Assembly (NCBI GenBank): GCA_026989655.1
Contig: JALSIX010000007.1
Location: 1-33,540, forward strand
Length of the DNA: 33,540 nucleotides
Direction: 5' to 3'
From: Caldilineaceae bacterium
GTDB taxonomy: Bacteria > Chloroflexota > Anaerolineae > Caldilineales > Caldilineaceae
The position numbers and the translations under genes are program-made. This document shows positions 706-24,971 of the stretch, in pieces (positions within the stretch are counted from its first letter, which is position 1; each line of letters opens with the position of its first letter). The notes under the pieces were generated by a model that saw nothing but the letters and a program-made list of their open reading frames with translations, had not been told where the DNA came from and searched no databases.

Positions 706-1401
706 TCAGAGCCGGCTGCCGTCGTCTGGGGGCAGGAGGCCCAGCCGACGCGCGCGGAGCACGGCCTCGAACCGGTTGCGGGCCTGGAGCTTGCTCCGGA
801 TGCTCTCCAGGTGTTTGCCCACCGTGCCCGGGCGAATGCCCAGCTGCCGCGCGATCTCCTGGTCCTGGAGCCCGGCGGCCACCAGTTCCAGGATCTCCTC
901 CTCCCGGGCGGTCAGGCGCGCGGCCTCGGCCCGCTGGAGCCACGATAGCTGCTGCGCGGTCCACACCGGAAGGCCCTGGGCCACCCGATGGATGGCCGCC
1001 CGGACCGCGTGGGGCGGGTCGTCCTTGTCCAGGAGGCCATAGGCCCCGGCCGTTGCGGCCCGGCGCACCCAGGCCGGCCCCCCGTATTGGCTGAGGAGGA
1101 TGGCCCGGGTGGGGGGGAGGCAGCGGATCTCCCGTACGAGCTCCAGCCCCACCTCTGGAGCGGATTCCCGGACCCCCTCGTCGGCCCGCAGGCGCAGGTC
1201 CACCAGGGCCACCGTGGGGCGGAGCCGCCGGATCTGCCGGAGGCCCTGGGCCGCGTTCGTCGCGGCGTCCAGGAGGCGAATGGCCGGATCCTGGGCCAGC
1301 TCCTGCTCGATCCCCCGGCGGAAGAAAGGGGAGTCCTCCACCAGCACCACCGTGATGGGCGCCGGGGGCAACGGAGATGTTCGCGGCGGCTCCGACATCA
1401 T
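706..1401 (-). CDS. NarL/LuxR-family response regulator
   Basis: A 231-residue two-domain regulator. The receiver spans about residues 15-145, with VEDSP for the acidic pocket, Asp68 in VALVDLR as probable phospho-acceptor and Lys126 in GLLDKDD. A LuxR/GerE helix-turn-helix follows at about 162-222, starting LTAREEEILELVAAG and with recognition helix PGTVGKHLESIRSKL. The start is one of two adjacent ATGs (1401 or 1398), preceded by GGAGGAGG. It begins 19 bp after the stop of the membrane kinase at 1421-3250, so the two form an operon and very probably a cognate pair (HisKA_3 kinases usually partner LuxR-type regulators). It is the same class as Bacillus ComA. Target genes are unknown. Confidence 0.92.
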   Translation of the reverse strand: MMSEPPRTSPLPPAPITVVLVEDSPFFRRGIEQELAQDPAIRLLDAATNAAQGLRQIRRLRPTVALVDLRLRADEGVRESAPEVGLELVREIRCLPPTRAILLSQYGGPAWVRRAATAGAYGLLDKDDPPHAVRAAIHRVAQGLPVWTAQQLSWLQRAEAARLTAREEEILELVAAGLQDQEIARQLGIRPGTVGKHLESIRSKLQARNRFEAVLRARRLGLLPPDDGSRL

Positions 1402-1420
1402 GGCTGCCTCCTCCACACGC

Positions 1421-3250
1421 TCATGGGCCCGTCGGCAGGGTCCATGGGGCCTCGGTCCGACGGGGAACACACAGGCGGATCCGGGCCCCTGTACCGGGCT
1501 GGCTGTGGATCGCCAGGTTGCCGCCGACCTCCTGGGCATGGGCCTGCATGATCTCCAGGCCCATGTGGCGGCGCCGCTGTCCCAGCCCGGACACGTTCGC
1601 GGGATCGAATCCCTGTCCGTTGTCCTCCACCTCCAGGCAGGAGGTGCCCCGGTGGACGGCCAGACGGATCGTCACCCGGTCGGCCTGGCCGTGGATCAGC
1701 GCGTTGTTCAGCGCGGCCAGGAGCACCCGGTAGAGGGCCTCCTTCACCCGGGGCGGATCCGCCTCGTCGTACTCCGAGCAGTCCAGCTCGATCCGGGCCC
1801 GGGGGTAGAACTGTTCCATCCGTCGTGCCACCCAGGGCAGCACCTCGCCCAGGCTCTGCTGGGACCAGTCCATGGGCTTGGTGGTGTCCAGGATGGCCCG
1901 CATCTCCTCCACCAGGCGGTGCAGCGCGCGGGCCGCCTGGTCCCGGTCCTGTTGAGCCTGCGGATCGTCCAGGGGAAGGCTTTCCACCAGCATGCGCACC
2001 CCCTGGAGGTCGGACAGCACCCGATCGTGGAGCCGATCCGCGATCCGATGCAGCATCTGTTCCCGGCTGCGGCGCAGGGCCTCGGCCTCCCGGGCCTTCC
2101 GTTCCGTCTCCCGGAGGAGCTCGCCGTTGCCCAGCGCGTAGACCAGGCCCAGGGGAAAGACCACGCCCATCGCGATGAGGACCTCGTAGGGCACCAGGGG
2201 CCAGCCCGTGAACAGGAAGGGGAGCCACCACAGGCCCAGGAGCCCTCCCACCAGGATGCCCACGATCAGGAGCAGGGCGTGGGTGGCCTTCCGCTCGGTG
2301 GGACTCCACCGACGCCGTATCTCCGGCCATGTCCGCAGCACCAGCCCGCTTCCCAGGGCCATGCCCAGGATGCCGTAGAGGAAGGATCCCTGGAGCATGG
2401 CCAGGAAGATGGGGCGGGCCGGGGGGCCGTTCGGGACGGCCAGGAAGCTGGTCATGCCCATGGCCAGGGGAGGCAGGTAGAGCCCGACCAGCAGCCGTAG
2501 ACGGCGCCCTGTCAGAGTGTGGGGGCGCGCGTACACCCACATGCTGTGGAGCACCATCACCCCGCTGAGCCCCGGCACGGGCAGGACCACCAGCGAGAAC
2601 AGATAGGAGCTGGGAATGGGGGGGCCGTCGAAGCTGTCCATGGCCCACAGGAAGTGGACCATGGCCACGGCTGCCAGGATGGTCATCCAGCCCAGGACGC
2701 GACGGTGGGTGCGCCGGCCGGTGTGGACCAGGACCCGGCCGGCCCACAGGGTGGTGAGGATCATGGCATAGGGCAGCCCGAAGACCACGGCGAAGACGTC
2801 CCCGCTGAAGATCCGAGCCGGCTCCAGGATCTCCAGAACCCGGTCCCCCCGTTCCACCACGTAGCGGACCGGCGTGCCCGGGGCCAGGGTCCTGTAGATC
2901 TGGGGGTACCGGTCTGGGGCCTCCCCCTGGATGGCGAGCAGGTGGTCCAGCGCGTGGAGCTGAAAGGGCGCGGACCCGGTGACCCGCCAGGGGAAGAAGC
3001 TCACATAGTAGGGCGGATCCATGGTCAGGTCGTGGATCCAGAAGAACCCCCCATAGGTCTGGCCGATGTGCCGGGCCACGCCGACCAACAGCCCCGTACC
3101 CCACACCAGGAGCACCAGGGCAGCCAGGTCGAACAGGCGCGGGGTCGGATCCTGGCGCCACCCTTGCCACAGACGAGACGAGCCCAGAACACGGGACAGA
3201 GGACCCATGGAACCGAACCGACAAGGTACCGACCCAGAGGGCACGGCCAT
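1421..3250 (-). CDS. Membrane sensor histidine kinase, HisKA_3 (NarX/ComP) class
   Basis: A 609-residue kinase if it starts at ATG 3250; ATG 3208 (595 residues) is an alternative and neither has a good SD. One TM segment at about 40-60 is followed by an extracytoplasmic loop of about 90 residues, whose end (APGTPVRYVVERGDRVLEI) resembles the last strands of a PDZ-like domain. Further TM segments fall at about 150-370. The dimerisation helix carries the phospho-acceptor His408 in DRLHDRVLSDLQ, and the ATPase domain has NNALIHG (N box) and EDNGQGFD (G1). It phosphorylates itself and very probably the regulator at 706-1401. The loop-in-PDZ arrangement recurs in the kinase at 14495-17050. The ligand is unknown. 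Confidence 0.9.
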   Translation of the reverse strand: MAVPSGSVPCRFGSMGPLSRVLGSSRLWQGWRQDPTPRLFDLAALVLLVWGTGLLVGVARHIGQTYGGFFWIHDLTMDPPYYVSFFPWRVTGSAPFQLHALDHLLAIQGEAPDRYPQIYRTLAPGTPVRYVVERGDRVLEILEPARIFSGDVFAVVFGLPYAMILTTLWAGRVLVHTGRRTHRRVLGWMTILAAVAMVHFLWAMDSFDGPPIPSSYLFSLVVLPVPGLSGVMVLHSMWVYARPHTLTGRRLRLLVGLYLPPLAMGMTSFLAVPNGPPARPIFLAMLQGSFLYGILGMALGSGLVLRTWPEIRRRWSPTERKATHALLLIVGILVGGLLGLWWLPFLFTGWPLVPYEVLIAMGVVFPLGLVYALGNGELLRETERKAREAEALRRSREQMLHRIADRLHDRVLSDLQGVRMLVESLPLDDPQAQQDRDQAARALHRLVEEMRAILDTTKPMDWSQQSLGEVLPWVARRMEQFYPRARIELDCSEYDEADPPRVKEALYRVLLAALNNALIHGQADRVTIRLAVHRGTSCLEVEDNGQGFDPANVSGLGQRRRHMGLEIMQAHAQEVGGNLAIHSQPGTGARIRLCVPRRTEAPWTLPTGP

Positions 3251-11576: not shown

Positions 11577-11866
11577 ATCGCCGTGGGATCCTGGACGAGC
11601 CCTCCCGTCCTATCCCGGAGCGCTCTGGGATCTCCGGTGGGTTCGCCTTCCCAGGGCCGAGAAGGGGGGTGGGCGTCTCCGGGAAGCGGGTCTGCGTCCG
11701 GGGCGGAGGGGCCGATCGCCGATGCGCCCTCGGTGGATGTGGCGCATTGGCCCCCGGGGTGACCAGGAGCCCCATGTCCGGTTCCCTCCTCGGTGCGGGG
11801 AGGGGATCCCCCCTTACCGATGATGCTGAAACACCCAGCCTCGGCCTGGCCAGGAAGCCCACAAGG

Positions 11867-11880
11867 TGCTATACTGGCAG
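11867..11880 (+). promoter_or_regulatory. Extended -10 element of comEC, probably leaderless
   Basis: TGCTATACT (extended -10) ends five bases (GGCAG) before the ATG at 11881, so transcription would start at or next to the start codon. No SD site exists. A nearly identical TGCTATACTGCCAG is found at 25397. Confidence 0.5.
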
Positions 11881-14556
11881 ATGGCTTACCCCGAGCTTTC
11901 CCCGTGTGGCCTGCACCGGGCCTGGGGCTGGGAACCCGTTGCCCGGTGTGGCGTTGCCCTGCCCCGACGAGGGATCCTGGTGCGGCTGGTCTACCTCGGT
12001 CTGGCCTATGCTCTGGGAGTGGCCTTGGGCCACGGTCTCTGGCAGGCGGGCCTCCTGGGCTGCGGTCCGCCTGCTGCCAGCTGGCTTCTGCCCCTGGTCG
12101 GGATCCTGCCGCTCCTCTTCTGGCAGGGGAGGGGCCCGTCTCGCTCGGTGCCTCCCCTGCGTTGGCCCCGGGCCGCGGGCTTCGAGCCGCCCACCCCCGG
12201 CCCAGGATGGGGCGTGGTCCTGGCCTGTGGGTTGGCCCTCCTGGCCGGCGTCCTTCGCTACGGAACCCGCCCTCTCTTTCCCTGTCGCCTTCCGGGCGAT
12301 CTGGCCGCCTACAACGCCGTCGGCCAGGAGAGCACCCGGGTTCCCCCGGTGCGCCTTCAGGGCTATGTGGACCGCTACCCCCTGCACCGGGAGGGGCGCT
12401 GGGAGCTGGTGCTCCAGGTCGAACGTCTGGCCTGGGGAGAGGGGGAGCGGGCGGTGGCCGGCCGAGTCCGGCTGTTGACCCGCTCTCCCGGGCCTTTCGA
12501 GTACGGCCAACCGGTCCAGGCCACCGGGATCCTGGTGGAGCCCCCGCGCTTTCCCGACTTCGACTACCGCTCCTACCTGGCCCAGCGTGGCATCCACAGC
12601 CTGCTCCAACGGGCCCGGGTGGTGCCTCTCGCGGGGCCGCCTCGGGGCTCGGGATGGCTTCGGGGGCTCTACGCCGCGCGGCGTCGGGGCGAGGCGGTGC
12701 TCCAGGGGCTGTTGCCCGAGCCCCATGCCGCGCTGGCCAATGGCATGTTGTTGGGCGTGGAGGCCGGGATCCCGGCCGGGCTGTACGAGCAGTTCAACCG
12801 GACCGGCGCCAGCCATGTGATCGTCATCTCCGGGAGCAACGTGGCGGTGGTGGCCGGTGTGCTCATGGCCCTGGCCGCTCGCATCCTCGGCCGAGGTCGG
12901 GCCCTGTTGCCCACCCTGGCCGGCATCGGGATCTACGCGCTCGCGGTGGGCGGCGATGCCGCGGTGGTCCGGGCGGGCCTCATGGGCGGTCTCTTCGTCT
13001 TGGCCACCGGCCTGGGGCGGCGCTCCACGGCCCTGGTGAGTCTGGTGGTGGCCTGCGGCACCATGCTCCTCCTGGATCCCCGGACTTTGTGGGACGTGGG
13101 CTTTCAGCTCAGCGCCGCGGCCACCGGGGGCCTGATCCTCTTCGGCCCCCGGTTGGACCGGGCCGTGGGGCTTCTGGGGCATCGGCTGGGCGGGTTGTGG
13201 AGAGCCCGCGGCCGGGGCAGCGAGCCCGACCCGACCGCGGGCATGGGGGTGGCGTTCCCCTCCCTGTTCGGGGTGCTCCGGGAGGGGGTCCTCCTCACCC
13301 TGGCCGCGAACCTGACCACCCTGCCCCTCATCCTCCACCATTTCGGCCGCCTGAGCCTGGTCAGCCCGTTGACGAACCTCCTCATCGCGCCGGTGCAGCC
13401 CCTCATCATGCTCTGGGGGGGCGGGGGGATCCTGCTGGGCCTCCTGGGGCTGGAGCCCCTGGCCCAGGTCCTCCTCTGGGTGCCCTATCTCTGCCTGGCG
13501 TGGACGGTGTTCTGGGTCCAGTGGACCGCGGCGCTGCCGGCTGCGGCCCTGGACGTGCCCCGCCTGGGCTGGCCCGGGCTCCTCCTGGCCTATGGGGGGA
13601 TCGGGATGCTCCTGTGGCGGCCCCGGGGGTGGAGAGGGCGCCCGCGCCTTCCCGGGCGTTGGCTCCAGGGAGCGGGCCTGGCGGTGGGAGGGGCTGCTGC
13701 AGCCCTGCTCTGGATGGCCGTGGCCCAGGGCCCCGACGGCCGTCTCCATGTGATCTTCCTGGACGTGGGCCAGGGGGATGGGATCCTGATCGTGACCCCC
13801 AGCGGGCGTCAGGTGCTGGTGGACGGTGGCAGCGATCTGGATCGCCTGTCCCGGGAGCTGGGGGCGGTGATGCCTTTCTGGGATCGTTCGCTGGATCTGG
13901 TCATCGCGACCCACCCGGACCAGGACCACACCGCTGCCCAGGAGGGGCTGCCGGCCCGCTACCGGATCGACCGGGCCGTCCAGAGCCAGGCCCTGGTCCA
14001 CCATCCGGACAGCCAGGCCTGGCAGGCCGCGATGGCCGGCGCGGGGGTCCCTGTCGCGGCCCAGGGCTTGGGGGGGTGGATGGACCTGGGGGATGGGGTG
14101 GCCCTGTGGGTCCTGTGGCCGCCTCCGGAGCTTCCGGAGGCCTTCGACGCGGAGGAGAAGAACGACCGGTCCCTGGTGATGGTGTTGGTCTACGGGGCCT
14201 TTCGCCTGCTCTTGACCGGGGACGCGGAGGTCCCCACGGAGCGGGCCCTGTTGGCCCGGGGGCTGCCGGTGGGCGCCACGGTGCTCAAGGTGGGGCACCA
14301 CGGCAGCCGGACCAGCTCGTCGCCGGCGTTTCTCCGGGCGGTGGGGGCTCCGCTGGCCGTGATCCAGGTGGGGGTCAACCGGTACGGCCACCCTCATCCC
14401 CAGGTGTTGGAGGCCCTGGCCGGCCGGGCGGTCCTGCGCACGGATCGGGATGGCCGCATCCATCTGATCACGGACGGCCAGGCCCTGGGGGTCCTCACTC
14501 CGGGGGGGGCGTGGTCTCCTCGCTCCGGAGATCGTAGCGGGGCAGGGCCACCGTGA
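11881..14556 (+). CDS. comEC: ComEC/Rec2 competence DNA-uptake channel
   Basis: An 891-residue membrane protein with the full ComEC layout: N-terminal TM segments, an OB-fold-like region (about residues 150-250, VRLQGYVDRYPL), the Competence domain with many TM helices and the signature TGASHVIVISGSN, then a C-terminal metallo-beta-lactamase domain with ATHPDQDH (His678 region) and VGHHGSRTSS (His806-807). ComEC carries single-stranded DNA across the inner membrane in natural transformation; the C-terminal domain is thought to act as nuclease. ATG 11881 is chosen because a -10 element lies five bases upstream. The 3' end overlaps the convergent kinase gene by 62 bp. No other com genes are adjacent. 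Confidence 0.93.
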   Translation: MAYPELSPCGLHRAWGWEPVARCGVALPRRGILVRLVYLGLAYALGVALGHGLWQAGLLGCGPPAASWLLPLVGILPLLFWQGRGPSRSVPPLRWPRAAGFEPPTPGPGWGVVLACGLALLAGVLRYGTRPLFPCRLPGDLAAYNAVGQESTRVPPVRLQGYVDRYPLHREGRWELVLQVERLAWGEGERAVAGRVRLLTRSPGPFEYGQPVQATGILVEPPRFPDFDYRSYLAQRGIHSLLQRARVVPLAGPPRGSGWLRGLYAARRRGEAVLQGLLPEPHAALANGMLLGVEAGIPAGLYEQFNRTGASHVIVISGSNVAVVAGVLMALAARILGRGRALLPTLAGIGIYALAVGGDAAVVRAGLMGGLFVLATGLGRRSTALVSLVVACGTMLLLDPRTLWDVGFQLSAAATGGLILFGPRLDRAVGLLGHRLGGLWRARGRGSEPDPTAGMGVAFPSLFGVLREGVLLTLAANLTTLPLILHHFGRLSLVSPLTNLLIAPVQPLIMLWGGGGILLGLLGLEPLAQVLLWVPYLCLAWTVFWVQWTAALPAAALDVPRLGWPGLLLAYGGIGMLLWRPRGWRGRPRLPGRWLQGAGLAVGGAAAALLWMAVAQGPDGRLHVIFLDVGQGDGILIVTPSGRQVLVDGGSDLDRLSRELGAVMPFWDRSLDLVIATHPDQDHTAAQEGLPARYRIDRAVQSQALVHHPDSQAWQAAMAGAGVPVAAQGLGGWMDLGDGVALWVLWPPPELPEAFDAEEKNDRSLVMVLVYGAFRLLLTGDAEVPTERALLARGLPVGATVLKVGHHGSRTSSSPAFLRAVGAPLAVIQVGVNRYGHPHPQVLEALAGRAVLRTDRDGRIHLITDGQALGVLTPGGAWSPRSGDRSGAGPP

Positions 14557-17050
14557 AGGTGGTTCCCCGGCCGACCTGGCTCTCCACCCAGACCACGCCG
14601 TGGTAGCTCTCCACGATCTGTTTGACCACCGAGAGCCCCAGCCCGGCTCCGCCGAAACGCCGGGTCGCGGAGCCGTCGATCTGGTAGAACTCCATCCAGA
14701 TGTTCTCCTGCTCCTCGGGGGGGATGCCCACGCCCTGGTCGCTGACTGCGATGAAGACCGCGGAGGGCTCGGCCACCTGGGCCTGGATCCCGGGATGCTC
14801 GCCCAGCCACACGCGGATGCGGATGGGGCCTCCGTGGGGGCTGAACTTGATGGCGTTCTGCACCAGGTTCTCGATGGCCTGGGCCAGCCGGCCCGGGTCG
14901 GCCCAGACCAACGGGGCCGGCCCGTCGGGGGCCGGGTCCGGACATTCCAGGACCAAGGGGTGGGTCTCTGGGGTCCCCATGCCCTCCTGGAAGGCCAGGT
15001 CCTGGGCAGCCTGGGCGCCGGCCCGGACCGCGGCCACCACGTCCACGGGCTGGCCCTCGTGGCGCTGGAGCTGTCGTCTCTGGAGGGCCAGGATGTCGTT
15101 GATCCGTCGTGTCAGCTCCTGGGCCCGGGTGGCCACGATCTGGAGCAGCTCCTTCTGCTCGGGGCGCATCTCCCCGGCGTCGCCGGCCAGGAGCAGGTCG
15201 GTGTAACCGGTGATGATGGTCAAGGGCGTGCGGAGCTCGTGGGACATGTTGCGGATCATGTCGCCCTTGATCCGGTCCGCCTGCTGGAGCCGGTGGTAGG
15301 CTGCGGCCAGCTCCTCGGCCCGTCGGCGTTCCAGGGCGAACAGGTGCATGGTCTCCAGGGCCACAGCCACCTGATTGGCCAGGGTCTGGAGCAGTTCCAC
15401 GTCCGACTGGGGATAGAAGTCGTCGGGGTCCCGGCGGCCGAAGAGCCAATAGCCCAGGATCCGGTCGTCCAGCTTCAGGGCGATCACCAGCCGCACCCAC
15501 TGGAAAGGGGCGGGGAGCCGGTCCTCCTCCAACAGGTAGAGGCCCGCGTGGCGCTCCAAGCGGGACCGGGTGGCCGGGTCCAGGGGCACGGGCAGCCGTC
15601 CGGAAACGGCCTGGGTGTAGAGCCATTCGGCCCGTTCGTCCGTCTGGCGGTAGAGCGCGGACTGGCGGACCAGGAGGCTGGGCAGGAGCTGGGCCTGGAG
15701 GAGGTGGGCCAACTTCTCCGGGCGCAGGGCCCGTGGGATCTCGTTCGCGAACTGCTGGACGATCCGCTCCGGCTCGTAGCGGGTTCCATAGGCCACCCAG
15801 CGGACGGCCCGCATGAAGGGCTTCTGGACCAACAGGGCCAGGACCAGGAAGAAGGCCGAGACCCCCAGGGCCAGCCCCAGGGAGCGGGAATCCAGGTCCA
15901 CCCATTCGTTGATGATCAGGAAGAAGAGGACGAAGGCCGTCCCGTAGAGGATGAGGAAGCTGTACAGGGCCAGGGCCTGGTTGGCCCGGACCTCGATGTT
16001 GCCCAGGCGATGTTTGTAGATGGCGTAGATGTAGACGAAGGGCAGGGCGGAGATGGAGAGGGTCACCAGCCCGGTCACCACCACCCGGGGCGGTTCCGCG
16101 CCCAGGAATGTGGGCACGATCCAGAAGAGGGAGGCCGGCAGGAGGGCCAACATGGCGCCGGAGAGCATGAAGATCACGCCGGTCCGACTTTCCCGGGGAC
16201 GGGGGCGGACGAACCGATAGAGGAGGAGGCAGAGCCCGCCCAGGATCCCCAGGAGGAAGCCCAGGAAGCTGTAGGGCCCTGTGATCCCCCGGGCCACGCT
16301 GAAGCCGGTCAACACCAGGGTCAGGACGTACAGGACTCCGAACCAATGGCGGTGGCGGCGCTCCCATCCGGGGAAGACCAAGGAGGTGTGCAGGTGGAGG
16401 TAGACGGGCATCAGGAGCCAGGAGAGGAGGGTGGTCATGTAGACCGAGCCCAGGGCCTGGCTGGCCGAGAGGTTGCCGGTGGCCAGCCACATCCCGGTGA
16501 GGTAGTTCATGGCCACCAGGAGCTGCCAGCGTAGATCCCGGGGTCGGAAGAAGAGCAGGACCACGGTGCCGGCCATCCAGAAGGCCAGGAAGGGGATGAA
16601 CCCGGCCAACCGCCGCACCCGAGCACCGGGTGGGGGCTCGGGCAGCGGCCAGTCCACGGTGAGCACCTGGTCGCCTCGCTGGATGGTCAGTCGGGCCACG
16701 TCGCCGGGCCGGAACCGGCCAAAGGGCACGTAGCCCAGGTCTCGGTTGTAGTCCTCCAGGGTGCGGGGAGCCGTGCCGTCGGCCCGGGCAATGGCCAGGA
16801 TCCGATCGTTGGGTTGGAGCAGCCCTTGGGTGGCCTGGCACCACGTCTGATAGCTCGAGTCCTGAGCCCCGGGGCACCCCTCCCGGACGTCCACGATCTG
16901 CCACTGGCTGTTGTAGTCGAGCCCTGGGTAGGGAACCAGGAGGATGTGGCCCAGGCTGTAGATCAGGCCCAGGGCCAGGATCACCGTGGCCAGGAGAAAT
17001 TCCAGCCCCCGGAAGTGTCGCTGGAATAGAGGTCGAGACGTAGGCGCCAT
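14495..17050 (-). CDS. Multi-TM sensor histidine kinase with PDZ-like loop and GAF-like domain (ComP-like N-terminus)
   Basis: An 851-residue kinase. TM1 (about 17-38) is followed by an extracytoplasmic loop (about 40-145) that looks PDZ-like: GLLQPNDRILAI and PGDVARLTIQRGDQVLTVDW. About eight more TM segments run to residue 410 and end in YKHRLGNIEVRANQAL and VAYGTRYEPERIV, a junction seen in ComP-type sensors. A GAF-like region (about 430-570) precedes a class I HisKA domain (His604 in MSHELRTPL) and an ATPase domain with VQNAIKFS, SDQGVGIP and GAGLGLSVV. ComP itself has a HisKA_3 core, so only the sensor half is ComP-like. It starts 34 bp after the isoprenyl-synthase homologue, in the same operon, and no response regulator is adjacent. 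AAAGG precedes ATG 17050. Confidence 0.9.
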   Translation of the reverse strand: MAPTSRPLFQRHFRGLEFLLATVILALGLIYSLGHILLVPYPGLDYNSQWQIVDVREGCPGAQDSSYQTWCQATQGLLQPNDRILAIARADGTAPRTLEDYNRDLGYVPFGRFRPGDVARLTIQRGDQVLTVDWPLPEPPPGARVRRLAGFIPFLAFWMAGTVVLLFFRPRDLRWQLLVAMNYLTGMWLATGNLSASQALGSVYMTTLLSWLLMPVYLHLHTSLVFPGWERRHRHWFGVLYVLTLVLTGFSVARGITGPYSFLGFLLGILGGLCLLLYRFVRPRPRESRTGVIFMLSGAMLALLPASLFWIVPTFLGAEPPRVVVTGLVTLSISALPFVYIYAIYKHRLGNIEVRANQALALYSFLILYGTAFVLFFLIINEWVDLDSRSLGLALGVSAFFLVLALLVQKPFMRAVRWVAYGTRYEPERIVQQFANEIPRALRPEKLAHLLQAQLLPSLLVRQSALYRQTDERAEWLYTQAVSGRLPVPLDPATRSRLERHAGLYLLEEDRLPAPFQWVRLVIALKLDDRILGYWLFGRRDPDDFYPQSDVELLQTLANQVAVALETMHLFALERRRAEELAAAYHRLQQADRIKGDMIRNMSHELRTPLTIITGYTDLLLAGDAGEMRPEQKELLQIVATRAQELTRRINDILALQRRQLQRHEGQPVDVVAAVRAGAQAAQDLAFQEGMGTPETHPLVLECPDPAPDGPAPLVWADPGRLAQAIENLVQNAIKFSPHGGPIRIRVWLGEHPGIQAQVAEPSAVFIAVSDQGVGIPPEEQENIWMEFYQIDGSATRRFGGAGLGLSVVKQIVESYHGVVWVESQVGRGTTFTVALPRYDLRSEETTPPPE

Positions 17051-17084
17051 AGGGGCCTTTCGGTTTGGGCGGCGATGGGCTGTC

Positions 17085-18065
17085 TCAGGATGGGACCCCG
17101 GCCATGGCCATGAACTGCTCGGCCAGGGAGGGGGCCAGGCGTTCCAGGAAGGTGAGGAACGGGCGGAGTTGGCTGGCCAGCAGATCCTCCAACGCCTCTG
17201 GGTGGGGGAGGGCGAGCTCGGCCAGCAGGTCGTGGATGCGACGATGGCGTACGCCCAGCTGATAGGCGCAGTAGGCCAGGGCCCCGCAGCGGACGAGGAT
17301 CTCCTGGGCCGCGGCCAGGGAGTCCGGATCCGCCTCGGCCCGAGCCCTCAGCGCCAGGAAGCGCTCCTTCTCCGGATAGTCCGCGGTGAGGGCGTAGAGC
17401 AGGACCAGGTTGTTGCGCCCCTGGGCCCAGTCGGAGTTGGCCGGGGCCTGGAACGCGTCCTCCAGGTCGTCGAAGACCTGGATGGCCTCTCCCAACAGTT
17501 GCCCCACTCGATACAGGGCTTGGCTCACCTGGGCCGAGGCCCCGCCCAGGAGAGCGCCGATCTCCAGCCCCGCGCCGTAGAAGGGGGTGCTCTTGGCCTG
17601 GACCACGGCCCAGTAGGCCTCCTCCCCCTGGAGGTTGCGCACGTCCAGCTCCTGGCCTGCGGCCGTGGCCAGGGACATACGGGCCAGGGCCTGGGTGGCC
17701 GCGGCACGGCGGGAGGCGGGCACGGGACACCGGTCCATCAGCAGGTGGGCCGCGGCCTGGAGGGCCAGGGCCAGGTTGGCCGTCCGTCCCGGCCCCATGG
17801 TCACGTGGGCCCCTTCCGGCTCCTGGTCCAGCATGTCGTCCACCAGGATGATGTTGATCTGGGTGCAGGCCAGCGCGGCCATGGCCGGGTGGGTGTCCTC
17901 CATCCGGCCACCCACCGCGCGGGCCCCGATGCCGGGCAGGAGCCAGTCCAGCTTCCGCACGGGGCCCTCCTCGGGGAAGAGGATGTCCACCTCGGGCCAG
18001 GTGGCCATCTCGGGCAGGGCCAGGATCTGCTCACGGATGATGCGGTTGTCCAGTGTCGACGACAT
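17085..18065 (-). CDS. Class 1 isoprenyl-diphosphate-synthase homologue, divergent (ComQ-like)
   Basis: A 326-residue trans-prenyltransferase-fold protein. The first Asp-rich motif is DDMLD (76-80), the second DDLED (199-203), and GQELDVRNL (137-145) and AKST (157-160) match other family motifs. Unlike chain-elongating synthases it has no GGKRxRP motif near the N-terminus and no Arg-Arg-Gly after the first DDxxD; QEPEGAHVTMGPGRT stands there. Loss of that segment is also a feature of ComQ, which prenylates the ComX pheromone on Trp. It sits upstream of a ComP-like sensor kinase and downstream of a small Trp-ended peptide gene, so a peptide-modifying role is plausible. A standard GGPP-type synthase remains the alternative. 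Start at ATG 18065; TACAAT lies about 65 bp upstream. Confidence 0.8.
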   Translation of the reverse strand: MSSTLDNRIIREQILALPEMATWPEVDILFPEEGPVRKLDWLLPGIGARAVGGRMEDTHPAMAALACTQINIILVDDMLDQEPEGAHVTMGPGRTANLALALQAAAHLLMDRCPVPASRRAAATQALARMSLATAAGQELDVRNLQGEEAYWAVVQAKSTPFYGAGLEIGALLGGASAQVSQALYRVGQLLGEAIQVFDDLEDAFQAPANSDWAQGRNNLVLLYALTADYPEKERFLALRARAEADPDSLAAAQEILVRCGALAYCAYQLGVRHRRIHDLLAELALPHPEALEDLLASQLRPFLTFLERLAPSLAEQFMAMAGVPS

Positions 18066-18130
18066 GGATCGAGGTCTCCGGAAGGGAACGGGGCGGTGGC
18101 TGGGCACAGGGTTCGCGGGCTTCTGGCGCT

Positions 18131-18160
18131 ATTGTACCCCAGGGCGGCTGTAAGGAGCAA
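18131..18160 (-). promoter_or_regulatory. Promoter of the isoprenyl-synthase/kinase operon
   Basis: On the minus strand TTGCTC (18160-18155) is followed after 18 bases by TACAAT (18136-18131). This predicts a start near 18124 and a leader of about 60 bases. Confidence 0.5.
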
Positions 18161-18258
18161 ACCGCTATTTGCCAGAAATTTCGCGAAAACGTCAAGTGGA
18201 GAGCCGGGGCCGTAAGGCAAAAGGGCCCAAAAATTCAGGTTCCCTTCTGGGGCGCGCG

Positions 18259-18295
18259 AAAAGGAACACCCCCGTGGCCTGGACGGGGGTGTTCC
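18259..18295 (-). terminator. Intrinsic terminator of the small peptide gene
   Basis: GGAACACCCCCGT and its perfect complement (18263-18275 and 18283-18295) form a 13-bp stem with a 7-base loop, followed on the minus strand by TTTT (18262-18259). It lies about 30 bp beyond the stop of the 57-residue gene, so that gene is mainly transcribed alone. Confidence 0.8.
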
Positions 18296-18322
18296 GAGGG
18301 GTGGAGTCGAGAGGCGGATGGG

Positions 18323-18496
18323 CTACACGCGCCAGCCCACCCAGTTGGTTCCGGGCTCCAGTTGGGTCATCTCCACGGCCACACGGATGTCCTCCGGCGA
18401 GGCCTCCTGCCCCAGGCGGCGGAGCATGGCGCTGGTCTCGTCCTGGCCCTCGTGGAGCATCTGCTGGAACTCTCGGATGGACAGGGTGTTCTTCAT
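18323..18496 (-). CDS. 57-residue peptide, candidate ComX-like pre-pheromone
   Basis: A short gene with an excellent ribosome site (AGGAGGTGACCC directly before ATG 18496), a promoter-like pair upstream and an intrinsic terminator downstream, so expression is well supported. The peptide starts MKNTLSIREFQQMLHEGQDE, has a central ASPEDIRVAVEMTQ helix and ends GTNWVGWRV, with Trp at positions 52 and 55; Trp55 is third from the end. It has no signal peptide, TM segment or Cys. Size, helix-rich N-terminal part, an S/T-x-E-E/D-type second helix and a Trp near the C-terminus resemble ComX of Bacillus (about 55 residues, prenylated Trp third from the end). The next gene encodes a ComQ-like isoprenyl synthase, then a ComP-like kinase. 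A small protein of unrelated function remains possible; no clear homologue can be named. Confidence 0.75.
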   Translation of the reverse strand: MKNTLSIREFQQMLHEGQDETSAMLRRLGQEASPEDIRVAVEMTQLEPGTNWVGWRV

Positions 18497-18552
18497 GGGT
18501 CACCTCCTGGGTAGTGGACGTTCACACCGCGCATCCATCAGGTCTCGGCCCT

Positions 18553-18581
18553 ATTCTATGCCGGCGACACGGGCCTGGGAA
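18553..18581 (-). promoter_or_regulatory. Promoter of the small peptide gene
   Basis: TTCCCA (18581-18576) and TAGAAT (18558-18553) are 17 bases apart on the minus strand, about 57 bp upstream of the ATG. This is a fair housekeeping-type promoter, separate from mutS. Confidence 0.5.
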
Positions 18582-18663: not shown

Positions 18664-21333
18664 TCAGCCGGGCTCCTGGCCGTCGTCCAGGAGGCGTTGG
18701 AGCTCGTAGAGGCGGTTGAGGGCTTCCAGGGGGGTCAGGTTGTCGATGTCCAGCCGGCGCAGGGCCTGGACCGCGGGATGGACCTCCGCGAAGAGGCTCA
18801 CCTGGACCGCGGCCACCTTGCCTGGGGGGGCCTCGTCCAGGACCAGGTCGCTCAGGCGGCGGGGGCCGGCCATGCCGGAGCGCTCCAGCTCTGCCAGGAT
18901 CTCCTGGGCCCGTTGGATCACGGCCCGGGGCAGGCCGGCCATCTGGGCCACGTGGACCCCGTAGGAGCGGTCCGATTTGCCGGGCAGGATCCGGTGGAGG
19001 AAGACCACCTGGTCGCCGGTGTCGTCCACGGCCACGTGGTAGTTGATCACGTGGGGGAGCCGTTCGGCCAGATCCGTGAGCTCGTGGTAGTGGGTGGCGA
19101 AGAGGGTCTTGGCCCGCAGCCCTGGGTGGTTGTGGATGTACTCCACCACGGCCCAGGCGATGGCCAGGCCGTCGTAGGTGCTGGTGCCCCGTCCGATCTC
19201 GTCCAGCACGATCAGGCTGCGGTGGGTGGCGTGGTGGAGGATGTTGGCGGTCTCCACCATCTCCACCATGAAGGTGGACTGGCCTCGGTGGATCTCGTCG
19301 CTGGCGCCGATCCGGGTGAAGATCCGATCCACCAGGCCGATGCGGGCCGACTCCGCGGGCACGAAGGAGCCGATCTGGGCCATCAGGGTGATGAGGGCCA
19401 CCTGGCGGAGATAGGTGGATTTCCCGGACATGTTGGGGCCGGTGAGGATGTGGATGGCCTCCCGGGGCGTCAGGCGGGTGTCGTTGGGCACGAAGGGGAT
19501 GTCCCGGGCCACGGCCTCCACCACCGGGTGGCGGCCGGCCACGATCTCGATATCCAGGCCCGGGTCCACCTGGGGGCGGACGTAGCGGCGGGCCAGGGCC
19601 ACCTGGGCCAGCCCGGCGAAGACATCCAGCCGGGCCAGGACCTGGGCCAGTCCCAACAGGCGTTCGGCGTTCTGGGTCACCTGGGCGCAGAGTTCCCGGA
19701 AGAGCTGCTGTTCCAGCTCCAGACGTCGTTCGTCCGCGTGGAGGACCTGGGATTCGTACTCCTTGAGCTCGGGGGTGATGTAGCGCTCCGCGTTGGTCAG
19801 GGTCTGTTTGCGGATGTACTCGGGGGGGACCTTGTCCCGGTGGGCGTGGGTGATCTCGATGTAGTAGCCGAAGACCTTGTTGTAGCCCACCTTGAGGCTC
19901 TTGATCCCCAGCCGTTCCCGCTCGCTCTGTTCCAGATCTGCGATCCAGTTCTTGGCATGGCGGCTCTGGGCCACCAGGGCGTCCAGCTCGGGGCTGTAGC
20001 CCGGCCGGATGAAGCCGGGGACGTTCAGGGTGGCCGGCGGGTCCTCGGCCAGGGCCGCCTCCAGGGTCTCGGCCAGGGGTCCACATGGATCCAGGGCCTC
20101 GGCCAATGTCTGCACCGCGGCCCTCTGGGGCTCGGAGGTCGGGGGGAGGGCGGCCAGGCCTTCCTCCAGGAGGGCCCGGAGCTGGGGGATGCGGCGCAGG
20201 ACCTGGCGGATGCCCACCAGATCCCGGGGCAGGCCGTTGCCCAGCGCGACCCGATGGGTCCAGCGCTCCAGGTCACCCAGCCCCCGGAGCTGCTCCCGCA
20301 GGTGCAGCCGAGCCTGGGTCTGGTCCACGAAGAACTCCACCGCGTCCAGCCGGGCCTGGATGGCCGGGGCGTCCACCAGGGGCTGGCCCAGCCAACGCCG
20401 GAGCAGCCGCCCCCCCATGGGGGTCAGGGTCTCATCCAGGACGCCCAGGAGGCTGCCGTGGACCTGGCCTCCCCGGAGGGTCTCGGTGAGTTCCAGGTTC
20501 CGCCGGGTGAACTCATCCAGGACCATGAACTCGCCCAGGGTGTAGCTGTGCAGGCGGCGCATCTGCTCTGCCGCGGCCGGCTGCATCTCCCGCAGATAGA
20601 CCAGGACCGCGGCCGCTGCCCGGATGGCCTGAGGCCATTCCTGCAGGCCGAAGCCATCCAGGGTGGCTACCTGGAAGTGGCGGCGCAGGGTCTCCGCCGC
20701 GGTCTCCAGCTCCACCTGCCAGGGCTCCACCTGGGAGACCTGGATCTCCAGGGCCTGGACCAGGCTCTGGAGGTGGGTGCCCTCCAGGGTTCCGTCGGCC
20801 AGGATGAGCTCGCTGGGCTGCAGGCGACTCAGCTCCTCGCCCACCCGACGCTCCACGGCCCGGGGTTCTGGGTCCTGGACCTGGGTGGCCGCGAACTCGC
20901 CGGTGGTGATGTCGCAGTACGCGATGCCGGCCGCGGTGCCCCGGGGATGGAAGGCCAGGGCCACCAGGTAGTTGTTCCGATCCTCCTCCAGCAGGGCCGG
21001 TTCGGTGACCGTGCCCTTGGAGACCACCCGCACCACCTGCCGATCCACCAGGCCCTTGCCCGGTTCGCTGACCTGTTCCGCAATGGCCACCTTGTACCCC
21101 GCCTGGATCAGTTTGGCCAGGTAGGTCTCCACGCTGTGATAGGGGACACCGGCCAGGGGAACCCGCTGGTTATGGCCCACGGGACGGCTGGTCAGCGCGA
21201 TGTCGCATACCTCCGCCACGATCTTGGCGTCCTCGTCGAAGGTCTCGTAGAAGTCGCCCAGGCGGAAGAGGAGGATGCAGTCGGGGTACTGTTGTTTCAG
21301 GGCCAGATACTGGCGGCGCATGGGTGTGGCCAT
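18664..21333 (-). CDS. mutS: DNA mismatch repair ATPase MutS
   Basis: An 889-residue, full-length MutS. The mismatch-recognition domain begins at once with LLFRLGDFYETFDEDA, holding the Phe-x-Glu wedge (FYE). The connector, core and clamp domains follow, then the ATPase domain with Walker A GPNMSGKST, the signature GQSTFMVEM, Walker B LDEIGRGTSTYDG and FATHYHELT. It binds mismatches after replication and recruits downstream repair factors; it also limits recombination between diverged DNA, relevant next to a comEC gene. The start is set at ATG 21333 because TACAAT lies six bases upstream, making 21369 (also in frame) unlikely. ATG 21321 is a third possibility. Confidence 0.96.
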   Translation of the reverse strand: MATPMRRQYLALKQQYPDCILLFRLGDFYETFDEDAKIVAEVCDIALTSRPVGHNQRVPLAGVPYHSVETYLAKLIQAGYKVAIAEQVSEPGKGLVDRQVVRVVSKGTVTEPALLEEDRNNYLVALAFHPRGTAAGIAYCDITTGEFAATQVQDPEPRAVERRVGEELSRLQPSELILADGTLEGTHLQSLVQALEIQVSQVEPWQVELETAAETLRRHFQVATLDGFGLQEWPQAIRAAAAVLVYLREMQPAAAEQMRRLHSYTLGEFMVLDEFTRRNLELTETLRGGQVHGSLLGVLDETLTPMGGRLLRRWLGQPLVDAPAIQARLDAVEFFVDQTQARLHLREQLRGLGDLERWTHRVALGNGLPRDLVGIRQVLRRIPQLRALLEEGLAALPPTSEPQRAAVQTLAEALDPCGPLAETLEAALAEDPPATLNVPGFIRPGYSPELDALVAQSRHAKNWIADLEQSERERLGIKSLKVGYNKVFGYYIEITHAHRDKVPPEYIRKQTLTNAERYITPELKEYESQVLHADERRLELEQQLFRELCAQVTQNAERLLGLAQVLARLDVFAGLAQVALARRYVRPQVDPGLDIEIVAGRHPVVEAVARDIPFVPNDTRLTPREAIHILTGPNMSGKSTYLRQVALITLMAQIGSFVPAESARIGLVDRIFTRIGASDEIHRGQSTFMVEMVETANILHHATHRSLIVLDEIGRGTSTYDGLAIAWAVVEYIHNHPGLRAKTLFATHYHELTDLAERLPHVINYHVAVDDTGDQVVFLHRILPGKSDRSYGVHVAQMAGLPRAVIQRAQEILAELERSGMAGPRRLSDLVLDEAPPGKVAAVQVSLFAEVHPAVQALRRLDIDNLTPLEALNRLYELQRLLDDGQEPG

Positions 21334-21369
21334 GGCTGTATTGTAGCCAGGAGGGAGAACGAAGGGCAA
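21334..21369 (-). promoter_or_regulatory. Leaderless-type promoter of mutS
   Basis: TTGCCC (21369-21364), an 18-base spacer and TACAAT (21345-21340), then six bases (ACAGCC) to ATG 21333. There is no SD site, so the transcript probably starts at the start codon. Confidence 0.55.
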
Positions 21370-21447: not shown

Positions 21448-23499
21448 TCAGGGGGCAGCGCCCACAAACCGGACCCGGGCATTGGGATCGCCGTAGAGGG
21501 TGTAGGCCAGCCAGGTGGGGTTGGCGGGCTGCCGTCGGCGCACGGCCATGCGGGCCTGGTGGAAGGCCCGGCCCAGGGGCTGTCCGGCCCACAGGGCCTG
21601 GTAGAAGCTCCGCGCGAAGAGCGGGGCCAGCTCGTCGCTGATCTCCCACAGGCTGCCGACAAAGCCGGTGACGGCCACCTGGTCGATGAGCTGCTCGGCC
21701 CAGCCGCCCAGCCCGGTGAGGGTGAAGCCCAGCCGCCCGCTGTGGCACGTGTTGAAGAAGATCAGGGGGTGCTCCTGTCGGAGCCCCCGAGCCGTCAGGG
21801 GATTCAGATCCCGGGGCATCAAGGGGCCGTCCTCCAACAGGATCGGGGATTCCTGGGCGTTCTCCGGCGCGAAGTGGCCGTGGGTGGCCACGTGGATGAG
21901 CTGGACGCCGCCCTCCCGGGCCAGGGCCAGGACCTGGGTCCGCCGCCGCAGGGGTTCCGGCACATGGATGCGCCGGCGGGCCAGCTCCTGGAAGTAGGCC
22001 TGTTCCTGCTCCACGAAGGCCAGGTCCATCTCCGGCGCGATCAGGCGAGCCGCCCGGATGGCCAGCTCGGGCCGCAGCCCCTCCCCGGCCAGCCAGCGGG
22101 TGACCTGGAAGGCACCGGCCAGGAAGTCGCTCTCCTGTCCGGTGTCCGGATCCATGGGATAGCACAGCTCCCAGGGGATCCAGGGTTCATCGCTGGTGAT
22201 GAGCAGGCTCAAGGGCCGGCCCTCCTGCTCCTGGGTGGCCTGGGCCAGCTCCCAGATCCGCCAGTACTCCTGCTTCAAGGCCTCTGGGAAGAGCGCGTCG
22301 TAGAGCTCCCATCCCAGGCCCTTCAGTTCGGTCAGCCACATGTCCTCCTCTTCCGGGGAGTGGCCGTCCGCCGGGCGGCGGGCCCGTTGGTTGAGGGCCT
22401 CCACCAGGGAGGCAAAGTAGCCGGCCGGGTCCGCCAGTTCGGGCAGTTCGACCGAGCCCACGTCCTCCCAGTGGTAGCCCAGGCGGGCGTAGGGCGCATG
22501 GAGGATGTAACGGAGGGTGCGCCCGTCCCGGCTGCGGACCACCCGCAGCTCCACGTCCGTGGGCGGGGGCGGTGTGTGGGGAAGCGCGATCTCGGTGGGG
22601 CCTCGGACCATCCGGGCGGTGGGCCGCGCCGGGGCGGATGCCGTGCGGGTGGATGGGGGAGCCGACGAGAGCACCCGGGTCTCCACGATGAAGGTGCCCA
22701 CGTTTCGCCCCCGGTGGTAGAGGTCCACGGTGAGGCGGCGGGGCCCGGCCCCTGGGCGGCTCAGGCGGAGCAGGAAGATGGCCGGCTGGGAGTCTGCCTG
22801 CGCGTAGACCGCGATGGTGCGGCTCCAGATGCCGGTACGCTCCACGAAGTCCGGCGTGATCAGGCGGACCTCCACCATCTCCGGCTCGGCGGGGTCTGGG
22901 AAGTGTACGGTCACCCGTCCCGACACCCGGCTGGTCGCCTGGGGGGCTTGGGTGAGCTGGACCAGGAGCAGGTGCTCCTGGGCAGGGTCGTCGGGGATGG
23001 TCTCGGGAAAGTCGACGTGGGTGTGGAGCGGGATGGCCCGGGCCTTCTCCTCCCGCTCCTGGGGTGTGGAGGCCTCCTCCGGGGGGCGGGCCTCCTCTTC
23101 CCGGAGGGCTGCCCGGGGAACGAGCTCATCCGGGGGGCCTTCGGCCAGCTCGGCCAGCCGGAGGGCCTCGTCCGCGGACAGGGTCACCACCGGACGGGAG
23201 GCCTCCGGGGCCATGTGCTGGACCCACAGGGGGTAGATCCAGGGCACCACCGGGTCCAGCTCCAGCAAGGCCTCCAGGAAGCGGAGGACTGCCCGCCCTC
23301 GGGTCAGGGCGTCGGGGGCCGAGCGCAGAGCGGCGGCCAGCCGGTGGCGCAGACGGTCGAGCTGTTCCCGGGCCTCGGGCGGGAGCTCGTTCCAACGGGT
23401 GTAGAGCTCCAGGAGCACGCCGGCCAGGAGGGGCTCCAGCTCCTCGGGCACCGGGTGCAGGGCCCGTAGCTCCGCGCGCATCTCCGGGAGGGTGGACAC
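21448..23499 (-). CDS. CHAT-domain caspase-like protease
   Basis: A 683-residue protein with a C-terminal CHAT (separase/caspase-clan) peptidase at about 425-680. The catalytic dyad is His540 in IHVATHGHF and Cys585 in FFNTCHSGRLGF; DEPWIPWELCYP (437-448) is the usual entry segment. Residues 1-125 are helical and unrecognised, 126-175 an acidic linker, and 176-280 a probable beta-sandwich (SGRVTVHFPDP, RLTVDLYHRGRNVGTFIVETRV), the kind of module placed between adaptor and protease parts in CHAT conflict proteins. No signal peptide is seen, so it is probably cytoplasmic. Translation starts at GTG 23499, two bases after the stop of the C11 peptidase gene, with GGAGG inside that gene's end, so the two are translationally coupled. 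Substrate and trigger are unknown. Confidence 0.88.
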   Translation of the reverse strand: MSTLPEMRAELRALHPVPEELEPLLAGVLLELYTRWNELPPEAREQLDRLRHRLAAALRSAPDALTRGRAVLRFLEALLELDPVVPWIYPLWVQHMAPEASRPVVTLSADEALRLAELAEGPPDELVPRAALREEEARPPEEASTPQEREEKARAIPLHTHVDFPETIPDDPAQEHLLLVQLTQAPQATSRVSGRVTVHFPDPAEPEMVEVRLITPDFVERTGIWSRTIAVYAQADSQPAIFLLRLSRPGAGPRRLTVDLYHRGRNVGTFIVETRVLSSAPPSTRTASAPARPTARMVRGPTEIALPHTPPPPTDVELRVVRSRDGRTLRYILHAPYARLGYHWEDVGSVELPELADPAGYFASLVEALNQRARRPADGHSPEEEDMWLTELKGLGWELYDALFPEALKQEYWRIWELAQATQEQEGRPLSLLITSDEPWIPWELCYPMDPDTGQESDFLAGAFQVTRWLAGEGLRPELAIRAARLIAPEMDLAFVEQEQAYFQELARRRIHVPEPLRRRTQVLALAREGGVQLIHVATHGHFAPENAQESPILLEDGPLMPRDLNPLTARGLRQEHPLIFFNTCHSGRLGFTLTGLGGWAEQLIDQVAVTGFVGSLWEISDELAPLFARSFYQALWAGQPLGRAFHQARMAVRRRQPANPTWLAYTLYGDPNARVRFVGAAP

Positions 23500-23501
23500 G
23501 G

Positions 23502-24971
23502 CTATGCCTCCGTCAACATCCGGACCAGATCCGGCCAACGGCTCACCCGAAAGTCCAGCCTGTCGTAGGCGGGGCTCACGGGCCGCCCTCGAGGGGGCAG
23601 GTAGATGGCCAGCCCATGGGCACGCATGTGGTCGGTGACCGGGTCCTGGAAGCGGCGGCCCTGGGCCACGTTGGCCACGATGGGCGAGAGCCCGGGGGTG
23701 GTCAGTTGGGCCAACACCCGGTCCACGGCCTCGGTCACCGCGTCCAGGGCCTGGGGCGAGCGGGCCTGGCCCCGCAGGGTCTGGAGGGCCCGCTGGGCCT
23801 GTTCGAAGAAGTCCTGCAGGTCGCGGTAGTCCGGGTCGCTGAAGGCCAGGGTGTAGGTGGCTGCCTGGAGGAGGGCGCGGCCCACCATGGGCTCGTCTCC
23901 GTGGGCGTCCACCGTGTCCACGAAGGCCCGGAGACGCTGGGCCAGGGGTTCCATCATGCCCAGGGCCAGCGCGGACTGGGTGATGGTCTGGCCCGACTCC
24001 GCGTAGCTGTATCCGTAGAGCTCCACCAGCAGCTGGGCCAGCTCCCGGGGAGTGCGGTCTGGGCGGTTGTTCAGTTCGTTGAGGATGAGGGTGTACTGCC
24101 AGCCGGGCATGGGTTCCACCTCTTCGCTGGCCACCAGGTAGTTGGCCGCCCGGCGGAGCTGATACGCGACCGAGGCCATGGCCATCAGGCAGGCGTCCAT
24201 GCCGATGATGTCCACCGGTTGGCCGGTGAGGGCCTCTGCCTCCCGGAAGGCCTGGGCCAGCTCCGCGTTGTCCAGGAAGTCCTTGCTGGTGTCGTCCGCA
24301 GCGATCCAGCGTCGCTGCACCTCGGGGGACGCGCTGCGGACCTCGTTCACCAGCCGGTGGACGGTGGCCCGGAAGAGCGCGGGGCGCCTCCCCCGGGCTC
24401 CCAGGCTCCGCACCCCGGCGTAGATGTCCTCCTCCTTCCAGCCCCCGCCGTGGTTCCAGAGGACCACCAGGTAGTGGTCCGCGGGGTAGTTCTGCTGGCC
24501 CCAGACGATGAAGTCCCGGAGGGTGTCCGGATCGCCGGTGTTGGTCTCCGGGATGGTGTGGACCGTGGGGGCCTCTCCTCTGCCCTGGATGACGATCCGG
24601 TAGCTGCGATCCTGTTCGCTCACCGTGTCGAACTGCACCAGGGCCTGGACCCGATCGGTGCTCCCCGCGGTGCGCATCTCGGTGATGTCCGTGTACCCGG
24701 CGCTGGTCATCTCCGCCAGGATCTGGGTCCATCCGCTCTCGGTGGGGAAGCGCAGGCCGTTGTCCCCGGCCATGTAGACCATCAGGGTCCAGCGTCGTCC
24801 ACGGACCTGGATCCCGTCGGAGGGCGGCTCCACCGGCCCTTCGTCCCGGGGAGGTTCCGGCGGAGCCGGGGACGACTCGTCCGGGGACGTCGGGGCCGGC
24901 TCCTGGGAAGGGCTTTCCCACAGGCGCAGGAGATCGTGGATGAGCCGGGACAGGCGGGCCAGTAGGGACAT
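23502..24971 (-). CDS. C11 (clostripain-like) cysteine peptidase
   Basis: A 489-residue caspase-clan peptidase. The domain starts with WTLMVYMAGDN (61-71); the dyad is His174 in VLWNHGGGW and Cys261 in IIGMDACLMAM. Such enzymes usually cut after Arg or Lys and are often self-activated. Residues 1-18 (MSLLARLSRLIHDLLRLW) form an amphipathic helix without a cleavage site, followed by a Pro/Glu/Ser-rich linker (20-53). It is thus not a classical secreted clostripain and may sit at the inner face of the membrane or bind a partner. It is the first gene of an operon with the CHAT protease. ATG 24971 is preferred; the frame is open further upstream, but a -10 box lies inside that stretch. Confidence 0.9.
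   Translation of the reverse strand: MSLLARLSRLIHDLLRLWESPSQEPAPTSPDESSPAPPEPPRDEGPVEPPSDGIQVRGRRWTLMVYMAGDNGLRFPTESGWTQILAEMTSAGYTDITEMRTAGSTDRVQALVQFDTVSEQDRSYRIVIQGRGEAPTVHTIPETNTGDPDTLRDFIVWGQQNYPADHYLVVLWNHGGGWKEEDIYAGVRSLGARGRRPALFRATVHRLVNEVRSASPEVQRRWIAADDTSKDFLDNAELAQAFREAEALTGQPVDIIGMDACLMAMASVAYQLRRAANYLVASEEVEPMPGWQYTLILNELNNRPDRTPRELAQLLVELYGYSYAESGQTITQSALALGMMEPLAQRLRAFVDTVDAHGDEPMVGRALLQAATYTLAFSDPDYRDLQDFFEQAQRALQTLRGQARSPQALDAVTEAVDRVLAQLTTPGLSPIVANVAQGRRFQDPVTDHMRAHGLAIYLPPRGRPVSPAYDRLDFRVSRWPDLVRMLTEA

Follow-up and report, generated by a model that had tools for sequence, protein, structure and literature searches.

Three neighbouring minus-strand genes in a 33,540-nucleotide stretch of DNA from a Caldilineaceae bacterium (phylum Chloroflexota), here called the window, encode in the order X-Q-P a 57-residue peptide, an enzyme resembling trans-isoprenyl diphosphate synthases (trans-IDS) and a sensor histidine kinase. 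They are situated between mutS and comEC. In the best reading of our data, this module would be a prenyl-tryptophan peptide signalling system of a new lineage, working like ComQXPA of Bacillus and the Pal system of Paenibacillus alvei, with an exchanged kinase core. That the enzyme prenylates a Trp of the peptide and that the kinase senses the mature product we consider probable. A preliminary description of this DNA had proposed a joint, ComQXPA-like action of the three genes. We found support for a system that works like ComQXPA, but not for one that is ComQXPA, since the sequence did not place the enzyme in the ComQ family.

Peptide gene and its linkage to enzyme and kinase

The peptide (MKNTLSIREFQQMLHEGQDETSAMLRRLGQEASPEDIRVAVEMTQLEPGTNWVGWRV) is encoded by an ATG open reading frame (ORF) with a strong AGGAGG upstream. 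Its Trp residues occupy the sixth and third positions from the C-terminus, the latter as previously described. The ORF is not a chance one, since its homologues adjoin synthase orthologues in relatives and since it carries a coding signature. A search with the peptide only, in 100 related genomes, yielded homologues (E 2e-7 to 8e-3) a few hundred bases from the synthase orthologue in nine genomes of the same family; the few weaker matches elsewhere were not near any synthase orthologue. With synthase orthologues as bait, sequence upstream of the synthase could be read at 28 loci from nine families. All 28 had an ORF of 48-68 amino acids directly upstream on the same strand, at a distance of 17-404 bp and with Trp in its C-terminal part, nearly always preceded by a good ribosome site. 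A synthase kept without a nearby Trp-ended peptide gene, which had been named as an observation that would speak against the proposal, was thus not seen at these loci. Most of the Trp motifs were of the WxxW type (WVGW, WAGW, WMGW, WQGW, WTDW, WSVW, WSAW, WVMW, WYVW, WEIW, WLIW), the others WGW, WRW or a single Trp, and at four loci the last Trp lay 10-14 residues from the end of the peptide. One locus, L101, is a doubtful member: its ORF continues beyond the Trp and was trimmed by hand, and its kinase is split, too.

Selection was measured on six congeneric relatives. The ratio of nonsynonymous to synonymous change (pN/pS) was 0.32 for the whole peptide gene and 0.05 for the last five residues; pN amounted to 0.10 in the leader, 0.374 in the linker and 0.028 in the last five residues, and half of the changes fell at third codon positions. 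The peptide is under purifying selection and its last five residues are nearly fixed. A fixed leader, a free linker and a fixed Trp core are, as far as can be judged from sequence comparison, the pattern of a precursor.

The window peptide resembles ComX in that it is a short precursor with Trp among its 5-10 terminal residues. It did not match the Pfam ComX family (PF05952), however, nor did four relatives, whereas three of four annotated ComX controls passed the cut-off and the fourth fell just short. A PF05952 search of the organism's own genome returned nothing above cut-off, and for the window peptide no match to NHLP precursors was found.

Conservation of the gene order in relatives had been suggested as a check, and linkage of the genes was conserved: in addition to the peptide gene upstream of the synthase at all 28 loci, the sensor half of the kinase was present in 12 of the 13 genomes with the synthase and in 0 of the 87 others (Fisher p 1e-14, uncorrected for phylogeny; 7e-8 at genus level). 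The one genome without it is G008, where the contig breaks off within the synthase gene. Among the 12, G010 has a broken synthase and G068 carries both genes at the ends of different contigs. Synthase and kinase genes abut or overlap in several relatives, which indicates coupled expression of these two. The peptide may be made separately from the pair, as a hairpin (-26.4 kcal/mol, z -2.4) with a short T run follows its gene; a stricter terminator pattern scan, requiring five T, did not list this hairpin. Upstream of the peptide gene we noted a weak candidate promoter, with 0.1 promoter-type matches on average in shuffled sequence. Outside the window's family the linkage is kept without the mutS/comEC context (L047, L056, L091-L107), and the orientation of the genes differs among the linked loci.

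Enzyme and sensor kinase

The two Asp-rich motifs of the enzyme, DDMLD (first Asp-rich motif, FARM) and DDLED (second, SARM), and the lack of Arg-Arg-Gly after the first were as claimed in the preliminary description; GKRxRP was absent as well. The isopentenyl diphosphate (IPP)-binding motifs GKRxRP and, after the FARM, RRxRP were missing from the aligned clade members, and all 13 canonical paralogues from Chloroflexota have them. ComQ shares the loss of GKRxRP and of the Arg-Arg after the FARM, as well as a deletion of about six residues just after the SARM relative to canonical enzymes. The FARM is kept, as in ComQ, whereas the SARM retains DDxxD here and is degenerate in ComQ. A Lys between the two Asp-rich motifs is conserved.

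We computed a tree of 28 clade members, 13 canonical Chloroflexota paralogues and four ComQ. The three groups were each supported at 100/100 and all separate, such that the window enzyme grouped neither with ComQ nor with geranylgeranyl diphosphate (GGPP) and polyprenyl synthases, the latter grouping having been named in the preliminary description as a result that would speak against the proposal. The reading as a housekeeping synthase was rejected on tree and motifs, and the same genome holds a separate paralogue with canonical motifs (G000:C56). The ComQ references of all comparisons were annotated records from plasmids, a B. subtilis ComQ sequence serving as bait only; a plasmid search with the window synthase gave no match at 1e-5. 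The AlphaFold2 model of the enzyme (pLDDT 81) has the trans-IDS fold and fold searches returned this fold, which does not tell the acceptor. Our best reading is that the enzyme no longer elongates isoprenoids and would instead transfer a prenyl group to the peptide Trp.

The kinase had been described as having about nine transmembrane (TM) helices and a PDZ-like loop after the first (TM1). In the hydropathy scan TM1 was followed by a loop of about 100 residues and further helices, with 8 TM in the window kinase and 7-10 in relatives. This conforms to the ComP-type architecture, in which TM1 is followed by a PDZ-like loop outside the cell and then by some nine more TM helices ahead of the kinase core; we assign the loop as PDZ-like with modest confidence. 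The N-terminal half of the kinase aligned with ComP over 354 columns (Prob 96, E 1e-9), as compared with Prob 1.3 or less for other polytopic proteins and reversed ComP and 24 for the second kinase of the window. Hhalign of the loop alone against ComP was not significant, and for the likeness of the loop to ComP we therefore rely on the alignment of the whole N-terminal half, together with the fold matches. Structure matches to the modelled loop, a low-confidence model, were dominated by PDZ domains (best Z 6.8) and included those of CtpB, DegS and 4FGM, entries that were reported for Bacillus ComP, too (PMC9620489). Among relatives, identity was 0.32 in the loop and reached 0.51-0.57 in the parts that follow it (multi-TM, GAF, HisKA and HATPase). 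Such fast evolution of the loop is as expected of a putative pheromone sensor.

The catalytic half differs from ComP. It had been described as a class I HisKA core with GAF; the HisKA assignment held (Table), whereas the GAF match stayed below the Pfam cut-off. The core is not of the HisKA_3 type of ComP. The phosphoacceptor box could be read in 20 kinases, of which 14, the window's included, have the class I core (fused to a receiver domain in L102) and six the ComP-type LHDxxL core (L059, L091, L097, L099, L103, L104). Two of the five LHDxxL-type kinases scanned matched HisKA_3, below cut-off. Between the two types, identity was 26-32% in loop, TM and GAF parts and 12-18% in HisKA and HATPase, which shows that the output module was exchanged and the sensor kept. 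A receiver-LuxR (REC-LuxR) regulator adjoins the module in L059, L091, L097, L099, L100, L103 and L104. All of these except L059 are full X-Q-P-A sets, with genes on mixed strands, and form one clade in the synthase tree. The family does therefore include the fourth part, as a LuxR-type regulator next to the kinase in relatives with the ComP-type core. As had been noted before, no ComA-type REC-LuxR regulator lies beside the module in the window.

Some loci deserve mention in their own right. At L059:4038-7450 (G010) the synthase is broken into two reading frames, and the ComP-type kinase and the regulator next to it are intact, possibly a decayed system. L112:3985-7204 (G018) holds a second sensor kinase next to a regulator, and neither a synthase nor a peptide gene was recognised in its vicinity. 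The quartets L103:483-4944 and L104:8510-13001 are, by eye, situated beside genes resembling polyketide synthases and non-ribosomal peptide synthetases (PKS/NRPS), as judged from ketosynthase-like starts and an 82-residue carrier-like protein, which recalls the control of surfactin by ComA.

A related but distinct ComQ-like enzyme group was found in four further loci (L114-L117), in gene sets with small peptides and a REC-LuxR regulator. Three of these loci also have a kinase with a PDZ match, which exceeds the Pfam cut-off in L114 alone; no such kinase was seen in L117, and that of L115 is truncated where the contig stops. L114 and L116 have X-Q-P-A on one strand. The L114 peptide, ending in ...GKWG, passes the NCBIfam cut-off for an NHLP-clan precursor of ribosomally synthesised and post-translationally modified peptides (RiPPs), in which the set resembles PalX-PalQ-PalP (PMC10853753). 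A phylum-wide search with this second enzyme set gave matches in 265 of 400 genomes and did not separate the set from canonical synthases. Going by the L114-L117 loci, sets of Trp peptide, enzyme and kinase appear to be present more than once in Chloroflexota.

Proposed mechanism and alternative explanations

In the mechanism we propose, the precursor would be recognised by the synthase-like enzyme, probably through its conserved leader, and an allylic prenyl group of the geranyl or farnesyl class would be transferred to one of the two Trp residues in the C-terminal W-V-G-W, most likely to the second. After removal of the leader and export, the product would be a short, lipidated, extracellular peptide. 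The sensor half, made up of the PDZ-like loop and the multi-TM part, may detect this peptide at or in the membrane and thereby control autophosphorylation of the kinase. In the window type, the class I HisKA core would signal to an unlinked regulator of presumed target genes, whereas related systems keep the ComP-type core and the adjacent LuxR-type regulator. A more far-reaching reading, which we consider less likely than not, is that Chloroflexota evolved prenyl-Trp signalling separately from Bacillus ComQ, by pairing an isoprenyl synthase of their own with a ComP-like sensor, that the two-Trp (WxxW) core has its own chemistry, for instance two lipid tails or a longer donor, and that the kinase output was exchanged later while the sensor was kept.

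Comparison with known systems is consistent with a likeness in function. ComQXPA of Bacillus (PMC4008528, PMC9620489) likewise comprises a small precursor with a Trp near the C-terminus, a divergent trans-IDS-like enzyme devoid of elongation motifs, a kinase with a TM1-PDZ-multi-TM sensor and a LuxR-type regulator, the last of these found in part of the Chloroflexota family. In Bacillus, however, the order is Q-X-P-A, and comQ, comX, comP and comA are adjacent on one strand; the Chloroflexota order is X-Q-P(-A), and the window has three genes. Further differences are the phylum, the lack of a Pfam ComX match, the separate enzyme clade, the retained DDxxD of the SARM and, in the window lineage, the class I HisKA core without adjacent regulator. 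The PalX-PalQ-PalP cluster, in which PalX was described as a RiPP whose gene neighbours a kinase gene (PMC10853753), likewise unites a precursor, a Trp prenyltransferase resembling trans-IDS and a histidine kinase. PalQ prefers Gly ahead of the Trp that it modifies (PMC13290415), which fits the ...VGW end of the window peptide. PalX differs by its NHLP leader with C-terminal Trp, and PalQ activity is lost when residues follow the Trp, whereas in the window clade usually at least one residue follows the last Trp. Ord1, a farnesyltransferase of free Trp (PDB 9v4g-9v4j), was among the best PDB sequence and structure matches to the window enzyme and shares the trans-IDS fold and the conserved Gln before the SARM; it has a small-molecule acceptor, and it retains both the Arg-Arg that follows the FARM and the greater part of the post-SARM loop. 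Canonical trans-IDS have the fold, PF00348 and the best profile-profile score in common with the window enzyme, but they possess GKRxRP, RRxRP and the loop after the SARM, all lost in the window clade.

Several observations weigh against a prenyl-Trp signalling system akin to ComQXPA. The profile-profile comparison suggested in the preliminary description did not put the enzyme inside the ComQ family: the window clade scored 207 against canonical enzymes and 119 against ComQ, and ComQ scored 166 against canonical enzymes. ComQ being nearer to the canonical enzymes than to the window clade, the shared losses may be convergent, and on these scores common descent with ComQ and separate origins within the canonical family are equally likely. 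A review linked Trp recognition to the Gln that precedes the SARM (PMC13290415), but canonical enzymes have this Gln too and we did not use it as a marker of Trp transferases. The AlphaFold2 model of the kinase was poor (mean pLDDT 50), the kinase of the window lineage has no adjacent regulator, and in G137 (L094) peptide and synthase occur with no kinase of the module type nearby.

Among the alternatives, the product could be a prenylated RiPP with antimicrobial or envelope activity, sensed by the kinase for immunity or production control and not for quorum sensing. Trp peptides prenylated by PalQ indeed have membrane and antimicrobial activity (PMC13290415), PalX, with its neighbouring kinase, is itself described as a RiPP (PMC10853753), and L103 and L104 are neighbours of the PKS/NRPS-like genes. 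We nevertheless judge this unlikely: at the inspected loci no conserved transporter, immunity gene or dedicated protease accompanied the module, the sensor part of the kinase matches ComP, and minimal X-Q-P(-A) sets better fit signalling. A considerably smaller chance is given to an enzyme that prenylates a small molecule, free Trp or indole as with Ord1, or makes a small isoprenoid signal for the kinase, with the peptide as regulator or cofactor of the enzyme. The good match to Ord1 and a fold that leaves the acceptor open would agree with this, whereas the C-terminus is the most constrained part of the peptide and the Trp motif recurs at all 28 loci, both as expected of an acceptor, and the Arg-Arg kept by Ord1 is lost in the window clade. 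Ordinary isoprenoid biosynthesis, by a chain-elongating synthase whose place next to a small ORF and a kinase would be owed to inherited synteny, appears most improbable. Fold and Pfam family are those of GGPP and polyprenyl synthases, and in the window's family the block sits in conserved mutS-comEC synteny; against this stand the clade-wide loss of the IPP-site motifs, the canonical-motif paralogue of the same genome and a linkage that persists without mutS/comEC and with differing gene orientation.

In 9,590 genomes, all sequenced by the end of 2013, a census published in 2014 located comQXPA-like loci in Firmicutes only (PMC4008528). For Chloroflexi, the kinase-regulator pair was all that a later survey based on KEGG listed (PMC8895600). 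Our literature search, with preprints and most subscription papers outside its scope, found no such system described in Chloroflexota and nothing closer. By membership rules applied to its sequence, the window system is not ComQ, ComX or ComQXPA, and would work like them. If the prenyl-Trp signalling reading is true, a family of at least 28 loci extends lipidated-peptide signalling to the largely uncultured phylum Chloroflexota. It would also provide new candidate Trp prenyltransferases, together with acceptor peptides that vary naturally, and a natural case of a pheromone sensor re-wired from one kinase class to another.

Feature coordinates and neighbouring genes

Table. Positions of the module, its parts and its neighbours in the window, and of the second-set loci.
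Feature	Position	Strand	Remarks
LuxR-type regulator	706-1539		GerE E 2e-15 (Pfam); adjoins kinase at 1421-3250
Other window kinase	1421-3250		HisKA_3 match E 4e-4, just under Pfam cut-off
comEC	11866-14556	+	Convergent with kinase gene
Sensor histidine kinase (P)	14495-17050	-	TM1, PDZ-like loop, multi-TM, GAF-like, HisKA, HATPase
HATPase_c domain	14537-14899	-	Pfam E 1e-28
HisKA class I dimerisation/phosphoacceptor domain	15071-15268	-	SHELRTPL; Pfam HisKA E 1e-15
PDZ-like loop after TM1	16622-16933	-	Residues 40-143; fastest-evolving kinase part
Trans-IDS-like enzyme (Q), proposed Trp prenyltransferase	17085-18065	-	Pfam PF00348 polyprenyl_synt E 5e-17
SARM, DDLED	17457-17471	-	Residues 199-203; invariant Gln196 before motif
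FARM, DDMLD	17826-17840	-	Residues 76-80; no Arg-Arg following
Probable terminator of peptide gene	18263-18295	-	13-bp perfect stem, 7-nt loop, then TTTT
57-residue precursor peptide (X)	18323-18496	-	ATG ORF; conserved leader, variable linker, C-terminal ...GTNWVGWRV
Shine-Dalgarno of peptide gene	18503-18508	-	AGGAGG, read from sequence
Candidate sigma-70-like promoter	18553-18581	-	TTCCCA-17-TAGAAT, 9/12; upstream of peptide; weak
mutS	18664-21369	-	Flanks module on peptide side
Second-set loci	L114:3387-7691, L115:1-2873, L116:1612-5934, L117:1200-3273

The convergence of the locus on comEC was seen as described earlier. A functional link between the two is unsupported: in the relative G024, mutS and comEC lie side by side with the module absent, and the nearness of the module to comEC is therefore probably inherited synteny. 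The LuxR-type regulator at the start of the window had been assigned its own HisKA_3 kinase; its class and the adjacent kinase were found, whereas the HisKA_3 match of that kinase did not reach the cut-off. This kinase also gave a weak match to the sensor half of the module (Prob 24, P 8e-4), above all non-ComP controls. Upstream of mutS, at 21448-23600, we noted by eye a CHAT-like protein (HVATHGHF), which occurs in the same place in several relatives.

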